Of a stretch of DNA of 64,000 bases, positions 31,581 to 63,800 are shown piece after piece (position 1 is the first letter of the stretch; each line of letters begins with the position of its first letter). A program made the position numbers and the translations under genes. A model generated the notes under the pieces. It worked only from the letters and a program-made list of their open reading frames with translations, was not told the DNA's origin and did no database searches. Origin of the DNA: Massilibacteroides sp. (GTDB taxonomy: Bacteria > Bacteroidota > Bacteroidia > Bacteroidales > Tannerellaceae); NCBI GenBank assembly GCA_028708075.1, contig JAQVZS010000001.1, forward strand, positions 205,319 to 269,318. Direction: 5' to 3'.

Positions 31581-31586
31581 CAATGT

Positions 31587-31657
31587 GTTTTTCATGGTAT
31601 TAGATTTAAGGTTAACAATGAAGATTGGTTGTCGTGATGACAACCTTTTCTTTTTTA
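31587..31657 (+). ncRNA. candidate small RNA or short leader transcript
   Basis: A perfect -7 element is followed about 47 bases later by a GGTTGTC / GACAACC hairpin and TTTTCTTTTTT, which would bound an RNA of about 70 bases. It lies in a 419-base space between nadK and the universal stress gene. A 22-codon ORF starts at an internal ATG but runs through the terminator and looks accidental. The rest of the gap (31658-31907) shows nothing I can name. Confidence 0.35.
31627..31655 (+). terminator. terminator downstream of nadK
   Basis: Stem GGTTGTC / GACAACC, loop GTGAT, then TTTTCTTTTTT. Confidence 0.75.
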
Positions 31658-32342: not shown

Positions 32343-32722
32343 GGTATAATTATTTTTGATAAAATATAACCTCCCCATACGGCTAATAATCCTAAGATAA
32401 CGCTTGTTGTTATATATATAACAAGTGTAACGTAGCTCCCGTTTTCCAACAATCGAAGGTTTTCTGCCGAAAAAGTGGAAAATGTGGTGTATCCACCGCA
32501 TAGACCGACGACTAACAACAATTTTAAGTTGTTATTTGTAACAACGTTGTGGGATATCGCATCCATTAAAAAACCGATAAGAAAACATCCGGTTATGTTT
32601 ATTACGAATGTTCCCCAGGGGAATATGAATGAAGAATGTTTAGAGAACCAAAGGGAAACAAGGTATCGGAAACTGCTTCCGATACCTCCGCCCAAGGCTA
32701 CGAACAATAATTGTTTCAACAT
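32339..32722 (-). CDS. crcB: fluoride ion exporter CrcB/Fluc
   Basis: A small four-helix membrane protein that forms a dual-topology fluoride channel. The signature stretches are GGGIGSSFRYLVS, GTFVINITGCFLIGFL (conserved Asn) and GLCGGYTTFSTFSAENL (phenylalanine box and T-F-S-T). Length 127 is typical. It sits between enolase, the main fluoride-sensitive glycolytic enzyme, and a stress protein, with 3-base and overlapping junctions. This order suggests fluoride protection of glycolysis. I found no fluoride riboswitch upstream. Confidence 0.95.
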   Translation of the reverse strand: MLKQLLFVALGGGIGSSFRYLVSLWFSKHSSFIFPWGTFVINITGCFLIGFLMDAISHNVVTNNNLKLLLVVGLCGGYTTFSTFSAENLRLLENGSYVTLVIYITTSVILGLLAVWGGYILSKIIIP

Positions 32723-34012: not shown

Positions 34013-34247
34013 CTAACTATTTATTAATGCTGAATAATGAAATATATTAAAGCAAATATTGTCTGTGCAATCTCTACGCAGGCCGTTTTTATTTGTTGTC
34101 TTTTTTTGTGAAAGATGCAACTGTACGAAAGGTATAAATATACGAAATTCCCACTCATAATCTTTATTGTTAGATTAATTAAGTAGGAACTATCAGCTAC
34201 ATATAGCGGTTTATAACAGGGAAGTCCCATTCCCATTTCATATTGTA

Positions 34248-34269: not shown

Positions 34270-34522
34270 TTTCTGAGAGATGTCGGGTGAATTTCTGAAT
34301 TTGGAAATACTCCCGATGCATGCCTTTTTTTAAGGCTCCATCGGTATGTGTGTTTGTTTTGATTATCATAGTAAAAACTCGTCCCTATGATTTTAAAAAA
34401 AGATACCGAACGTTTTTAAAAATCTTCGATATCTTTTTTTAAAACGTTCGGTATGATTTTTTTTAGTCTTTATTAGAGTTGAAAATCAACAATTAATATT
34501 TGATTTTTTTCGTCGGGATGAG
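34270..34522 (-). repeat. dispersed intergenic repeat, copy A
   Basis: Read on the minus strand, this non-coding stretch between pgi and eno aligns closely with 63587-63800 on the plus strand. Shared blocks in order: CATCCCGA, TTGTTGATTTTCAAC, AAAAAATCAT-CCGAACGTTTT, CGAAGA-TTTT, TTTAAAATCATAGG, GA-TTTTTTA, and weaker likeness beyond. Within it CCGAA-like motifs are 22 bases apart, and TACCGAACGTTTT / AAAACGTTCGGTA form an inverted pair. No ORF is present. Nature unknown. Outer limits are approximate. Confidence 0.7.
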
Positions 34523-63333: not shown

Positions 63334-63525
63334 ACAAATAAGTTTAGCCGCACTGGTCGATTGGGAAACTCATCAGTTAATTTAATTCCGAGACATAGCT
63401 CTTGTTACCAATGGCGGGCCGCACCTTTCGGGGATGCTTCGCACAGCGGATTACAAAGGTAGCAAAGCACTCAAATCCTGTCATACGGAGTTTGTTCATA
63501 TCCACAGTGCGGCTTTCTTTTTTTC
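63334..63525 (+). ncRNA. ssrS: structured RNA of about 190 bases, 6S RNA candidate
   Basis: Bounded by a promoter upstream and a T-rich tail. Ends pair perfectly: AGCCGCACTG (63346-63355) with CAGTGCGGCT (63505-63514). Inside, AAACTC (63366-63371) pairs with GAGTTT (63488-63493); then come two unpaired strands of about 29 and 20 bases; then CTTGTTACC (63401-63409) with GGTAGCAAAG (63458-63467), and CCGC with GCGG further in. A closing stem, a large central bubble and an apical stem in about 190 bases is the 6S RNA layout, which mimics an open promoter for RNA polymerase. The symbol is tentative. The 78-codon ORF on this strand is an accident. Confidence 0.5.
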
Positions 63526-63586
63526 TTCTCCCCTTGATTTTCGAAGAAGCTTTCGTTCCCTATCTGCTTGGAACAGACGAGAAAAT

Positions 63587-63800
63587 CATCCCGATGTCAA
63601 AAAGTATTTTTAGATTGTTGATTTTCAACCTTACTTAAGGTTTAAAAAAATCATCCCGAACGTTTTCAAAAATCGTCCCGAAGAATTTTCAAAAAGATCC
63701 CGAAGAATTTTTAAAATCATAGGTATGAATTTTTTATATGAAAATCAATAAAAAACAGTTCACTATGGAGGGCTTTTCGAATAGAAATTCGTCCCGATGA
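63587..63800 (+). repeat. dispersed intergenic repeat, copy B
   Basis: Aligns with 34270-34522 on the minus strand over about 150 bases well, and more weakly to about 250. Contains TCCCGAA at 63654, 63676 and 63698, exactly 22 bases apart, each in an A-rich/T-rich frame (AAAAATCGTCCCGAAGAATT). The TTGTTGATTTTCAAC block is at about 63614. No ORF. It lies between the 6S-like RNA and the 3' end of an AraC-type gene. Confidence 0.7.

Follow-up and report, generated by a model that had tools for sequence, protein, structure and literature searches.

The window analyzed here is a 64,000-nucleotide stretch of a Massilibacteroides sp. genome (contig JAQVZS010000001.1, positions 205,319 to 269,318). 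It carries two copies of a repeat on opposite strands, i.e., copy A, between pgi and the fluoride-riboswitch-eno locus, and copy B, between a Bacteroidales-1 RNA and a minus-strand open reading frame. The fluoride riboswitch (RF01734; 48.9 bits; window positions 34177-34243, minus strand) lies directly upstream of the enolase gene. The eno DNA had no strong match beside pgi in two species of the same genus, in which other sequence follows pgi. The Bacteroidales-1 RNA (RF01693, suggested to be 6S-like) occupies positions 63346-63520 on the plus strand, immediately 5' of copy B, and a member of the FopS small RNA family (RF04319) is found at positions 31585-31657 (plus strand). The parts of the two copies are listed below in window coordinates; those marked "alignment" were placed from the alignment of copies.

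34308..34521, minus strand: copy A, full element, from the L1 word to the outer right word, between pgi and the fluoride-riboswitch-eno locus
34511..34520, minus strand: copy A, left outer word CATCCCGACG (L1; alignment)
34479..34489, minus strand: copy A, left palindrome TTGATTTTCAA (alignment)
34446..34455, minus strand: copy A, unit 1 word CATACCGAAC, forward
34424..34433, minus strand: copy A, unit 2 word GATATCGAAG, forward
34402..34411, plus strand: copy A, unit 3 word GATACCGAAC, inverted relative to the element
34380..34389, plus strand: copy A, unit 4 word CGTCCCTATG, inverted relative to the element
34360..34368, minus strand: copy A, right palindrome TGATAATCA (alignment)
34339..34348, minus strand: copy A, right inner word CATACCGATG (R1; alignment)
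34310..34319, plus strand: copy A, outermost right word, inverted variant (R0; alignment)
63586..63800, plus strand: copy B, full element, between the Bacteroidales-1 (6S-like) RNA and a minus-strand open reading frame
63587..63596, plus strand: copy B, left outer word CATCCCGATG (L1; alignment)
63618..63628, plus strand: copy B, left palindrome TTGATTTTCAA (alignment)
63652..63661, plus strand: copy B, unit 1 word CATCCCGAAC, forward
63674..63683, plus strand: copy B, unit 2 word CGTCCCGAAG, forward
63696..63705, plus strand: copy B, unit 3 word GATCCCGAAG, forward
63718..63727, minus strand: copy B, unit 4 word CATACCTATG, inverted relative to the element
63739..63747, plus strand: copy B, right palindrome TGAAAATCA (alignment)
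63761..63768, plus strand: copy B, right inner site CACTATGG (R1, type 1; alignment)
63790..63799, plus strand: copy B, outer right word CGTCCCGATG (R0; alignment)

An earlier note on this DNA had described copies A and B as a two-copy repeat whose blocks align with conserved spacing. The blockwise alignment held over about 215 bp; the copy number did not. The note had proposed a BLAST search of the whole genome and would have given up the element had no further copies appeared and had the pairwise identity not exceeded the level expected for AT-rich DNA. With copy A as the query, this search returned copy B (E = 8e-26) and about 35 other places (best E = 3e-47). The 3.25-Mb assembly thus holds approximately 35 copies of the 22-base-phased element, essentially all of them intergenic. 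A profile search built from these copies gave full-length copies of ~215 bp with constant ends, and an alignment of 24 copies spans just 219 columns. Certain contigs terminate inside or close to copies, and the matches at the end of contig C15 and the start of contig C87 are apparently a single copy split between the two. Apparent partial duplicates at L005 (~1283-1382) and L016 (~1757-1857), which imitate a 227-bp tandem copy, were rejected as assembly artifacts, i.e., N-run scaffold gaps inside elements with duplicated contig ends. No young, near-identical copies were present in the genome, the closest pair being 82% identical over the full element. We found no description of this repeat in the open-access literature.

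In the alignment, a full-length element is built around four tandem 22-bp units, with a palindrome on each side (TTGANNNTCAA on the left) and outer words at both ends. The left end is an outer word, usually CATCCCGATG and often preceded by an additional outer word, followed by the TTGANNNTCAA palindrome; a degenerate unit with TAAGG sits between this palindrome and the four units. To the right of the units stands a TGANNNTCA palindrome; beyond it come an inner site, which is either CACTATGG or CATCCCGATG, and then an outer word. Each 22-bp unit is composed of an A-tract, a 10-bp near-palindromic but polar word, and a T-tract. The unit motif, "CCGAA-like" in the earlier note, is better described by SRTMYCKAWS. 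In this word, T3, C6, and A8 vary little or not at all, and two letters are used at most of the remaining positions. Word orientation follows a rule at the ends of the array: unit 1 was forward in 22 of 24 copies and unit 4 was inverted in all 24, while units 2 and 3 were mixed. Within copies, units 1 and 2 were slightly more alike than in shuffles (p = 0.03). In its exact form, the word CATCCCGATG was counted only 31 times in the genome, mostly inside elements.

Words differ and change orientation between copies, whereas the spacing is almost fixed. The 22-base periodicity noted earlier proved exact: the distance between the flanking palindromes was 120 bp in 22 of the 25 scored copies, 119 bp in two, and 98 bp, i.e., shorter by exactly one 22-bp unit, in one. 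Six further sites of the element lie near the helical phase of the units, at a best period of 10.7 bp (p = 0.02 only). Pairs of copies within the genome differed on average by 0.33 gap openings and 39 substitutions. Three arrays common to two other genomes (G023 and G076, described below) had no gaps and 32 substitutions, against 8 gaps and 152 substitutions in their flanks; the pairwise counts are nonindependent and the flank sample is small. Between G076 and G023 arrays in the same gap, spacing was kept while a word might flip or swap C and G. Judged from these sequences, the gap counts point to selection on length. The earlier proposal of an "old mobile or selected element" is accordingly borne out in its second part, as spacing is kept while letters change; mobility is weakly indicated.

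Copying nonetheless left some traces. Between copies, the similarity of the left half was correlated with that of units 1 and 2 (Mantel test; r = 0.25, p = 0.006), and the similarity of units 1 and 2 was correlated with that of the right part (r = 0.29, p = 0.002); other pairs of parts gave weaker or nonsignificant correlations. This weak correlation between some separate parts of the element indicates that certain copies are probably derived from others and that dispersal by copying probably contributed to the history of the family. One G076 array (L073) is ~80 bp of sequence that is extra relative to two relatives, with no clear target duplication. The pgi locus in the two same-genus species was considered as an empty site but was unusable, its flanks being too diverged.

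We scanned about 640 Bacteroidota genomes, one per species, in partly overlapping family (125 genomes), order (393), and phylum (148) collections for two words in 22-bp phase, with the reversed pattern as a control. Matches were confined to four genomes: the source genome (65), G023 (45), G076 (39), and G005 (4). The control gave zero matches throughout. G023 and G076 are two species of another genus in the same family, and G005 belongs to a third genus; two other species of the source genus had no match, and the element is therefore dispensable. A left-half pattern gave three chance-like matches in other genomes, in a collection that perhaps lacked the source genome itself. Arrays in G023 and G076 contain three words, one of which is decayed in some cases, and their edges are sharp, with the frames on either side dropping to background. 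Of the pairs of adjacent words in these arrays, 47 were direct; opposed pairs were more often head-to-head than tail-to-tail (26 versus 4; p = 6e-5).

Head-to-head words can form a hairpin, and the element might accordingly be a bidirectional transcription terminator or an RNA-stabilizing hairpin. The earlier note had pointed to an inverted third unit that makes a long hairpin. This is correct for copy A, in which arms at 34395-34422 and 34435-34462 are 89% complementary and the RNA fold has a z score of -5.1, but it is not a general feature: the third unit of copy B is direct, and the covariation check that the note had proposed found none between units 2 and 3 across copies (p = 0.30). The hairpin is incidental to some copies. 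Beyond the fold of copy A and the head-to-head preference, this explanation draws on the source genome, in which gene ends tend to be closer to the element than gene starts are. Many arrays, however, consist entirely of direct words, for which a hairpin is impossible; RNAalifold predicted no consensus pairs across copies, and no Rfam family matched at copies A or B, so that the element does not qualify as a structured RNA. As for termination, pgi already comes with an inverted repeat immediately preceding copy A, 12 of 38 arrays in the other genomes lie between divergent genes, and a consensus terminator scan of the copy A region flagged neither the pgi inverted repeat nor the element. The GC stem and T tail at gene ends of an intrinsic terminator are thus not what the family presents. 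Taken together, the lack of a conserved fold and of covariation, the direct-only arrays, and the indifference to gene direction weigh against a role as an RNA or a terminator, which we consider quite improbable.

This indifference was seen in the source genome and the other carriers alike, with arrays in divergent, codirectional, and convergent gaps. Among the 38 arrays of other genomes with both neighbors called (including two of G005), 12 were in divergent, 19 in codirectional, and 7 in convergent contexts. On one nearly closed chromosome, placement was Poisson-like (coefficient of variation [CV], 1.02). The excess in the origin half was mild (29 of 42; p = 0.02), with p = 0.10 when five polysaccharide-leader paralogues were left out.

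Near-palindromic phased operators are typical of regulators, and the arrays could be operators of a single regulon, read by a transcription factor with about 40 target operons. Both G005 arrays (L061 and L062) fit this, lying in closely similar leaders upstream of polysaccharide biosynthesis genes, as do five G076 arrays at four loci (L115-L118) in similar, repeated, leader-like DNA of several hundred bases. (L116 also carries a perfect 2,135-bp tandem duplication.) Arrays are also found between convergent genes and inside coding sequence, however, and the neighboring genes had no obvious common theme. We regard a single regulon as unlikely.

The coding-sequence case is an array inside sbcC, which encodes an SMC-like nuclease subunit (Pfam SbcC_Walker_B), in both G023 and G076 (L090:2468-2520 and L120:2056-2110). 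In G023, the array encodes EFGMIFQKHRDDLKNHRDD; in other species of the genus, this part of the protein is equally long but differs in its residues. The array therefore replaced codons while the reading frame and the protein length were kept, and an array that arose without a change in length does not bear the signature of an insertion. Such sites can thus form within coding sequence. In the source genome, one copy of the element lies ~80 bp downstream of sbcC (G000:C1, about 32413-32627). SbcCD acts on palindromic DNA, but the association of arrays with sbcC may be coincidental. Three same-gap coincidences between genera and one more at sbcC were near chance by a rough estimate, and we do not claim shared array addresses.

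The dispersed copies also raise the question of whether the element is a selfish repeat of the REP/BIME or MITE kind, nonautonomous and with words serving as end or subterminal sites for a transposase. Many dispersed intergenic copies, the correlations between separate parts, and the ~80 extra bp at L073 speak for this, as does the sbcC array, which parallels REPs lying in replication and genome-repair genes (PMC3733652). On the other side, the sbcC array is a length-neutral replacement, and young copies are missing. By eye, we saw no target-site duplications and no terminal inverted repeat shared across the alignment, the outer words being mostly direct. Searches of viral contigs, phages, and plasmids for copies found nothing, and a phage or plasmid origin was rejected on this basis. 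The Y1 transposase (PF01797) was absent from all four carriers, with matches in two noncarriers and in 5 of 14 control genomes. Given that CGTC-type REPs have been reported without a dedicated transposase (PMC3733652), this absence excludes the RAYT type only. Mu-transpos_C (the Tn7/Mu-type transposase) had no match in the carriers and, being unmatched in the controls as well, is uninformative. We consider a selfish repeat doubtful.

The combination of a fixed two-turn period and polar words that vary is consistent with cooperative binding of a protein to duplex DNA, and the family shows the conserved words, helical spacing, and intolerance of indels expected of operator arrays. Our confidence is evenly balanced that the element is a helically phased, operator-like array for a putative DNA-binding protein, i.e., a site in double-stranded DNA rather than an RNA gene or a terminator. 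One unit of the sequence-specific protein would bind to each 22-bp unit. With units exactly 22 bp, or two turns, apart, neighboring proteins would sit on one face of the helix and could assemble cooperatively. The minimal array is the three words of G023 and G076, and the source-species form comprises the four units plus the flanking palindromes and outer words at a phase of ~10.7 bp. The sites are scattered around the chromosome without being strongly tied to gene direction, a distribution that suggests a role at the level of the chromosome (in nucleoid architecture, in anchoring, or as a dock for a DNA-processing factor) more than control of individual genes. Several results run against an operator array: no binding protein was found, and the genes that recur beside arrays across genomes include no obvious candidate; the Poisson-like placement shows no origin or terminus pattern like that of known architecture sites; two other species of the genus do without the element; the phase test for the outer sites gave p = 0.02 only; and units 1 and 2 of a copy are slightly more alike than shuffles. 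The Mantel correlations, in turn, show some copying, which selection alone does not need.

If a dedicated protein reads the arrays, they would constitute a new chromosome-site system in one Bacteroidales family. Their code (word, polarity, and 22-bp phase) is simple and testable, and because most relatives have no arrays, gain and loss can readily be compared. We tentatively raise the possibility of a new class of bacterial chromosome site, in which interchangeable polar words form an array in helical phase for a putative protein reader; such arrays would arise in place, even in coding sequence, turn over quickly between species, and mark tens of loci independently of transcription.

Several known systems share parts of this description. 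Noc binding sites, parS, and matS are near-palindromic protein sites scattered over the chromosome, some of them allowed in coding sequence, but each is a single site, and their distribution is clearly biased toward the origin or the terminus, while the present arrays hold three or four phased sites and are placed in a Poisson-like manner. Iteron arrays and the end sites of Tn7 and Mu transposases are tandem repeats of ~20 to 22 bp in helical phase; the element differs from both in having tens of chromosomal copies without a replicon or transposon body. DNA uptake sequences are short words, sometimes in inverted pairs, and were ruled out because the exact words are almost confined to elements. 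Background on Noc is available (PMC8429893). REPs are mostly intergenic, often occur as opposed pairs, and in some cases lie in replication and genome-repair genes (PMC3733652); REP/BIME units are protein bound in Escherichia coli, sometimes inside repair genes (PMC3733652, PMC6006769, PMC2817692). The element resembles them in its dispersed, short palindromic units, which are mostly intergenic, clustered, and often opposed (PMC3733652, PMC6006769, PMC2817692). It differs in its 22-bp helical repeat of fixed spacing, its internal polar word, the common direct arrays, a single unit that is not itself a hairpin, the absence of a conserved GTAG/CGTC foot from the word alphabet, and the lack of a Y1 transposase in carriers. 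REP/BIME is the nearest known kind, and the element is a variant of dispersed palindromic-word repeats that departs from the RAYT type in two tested features.
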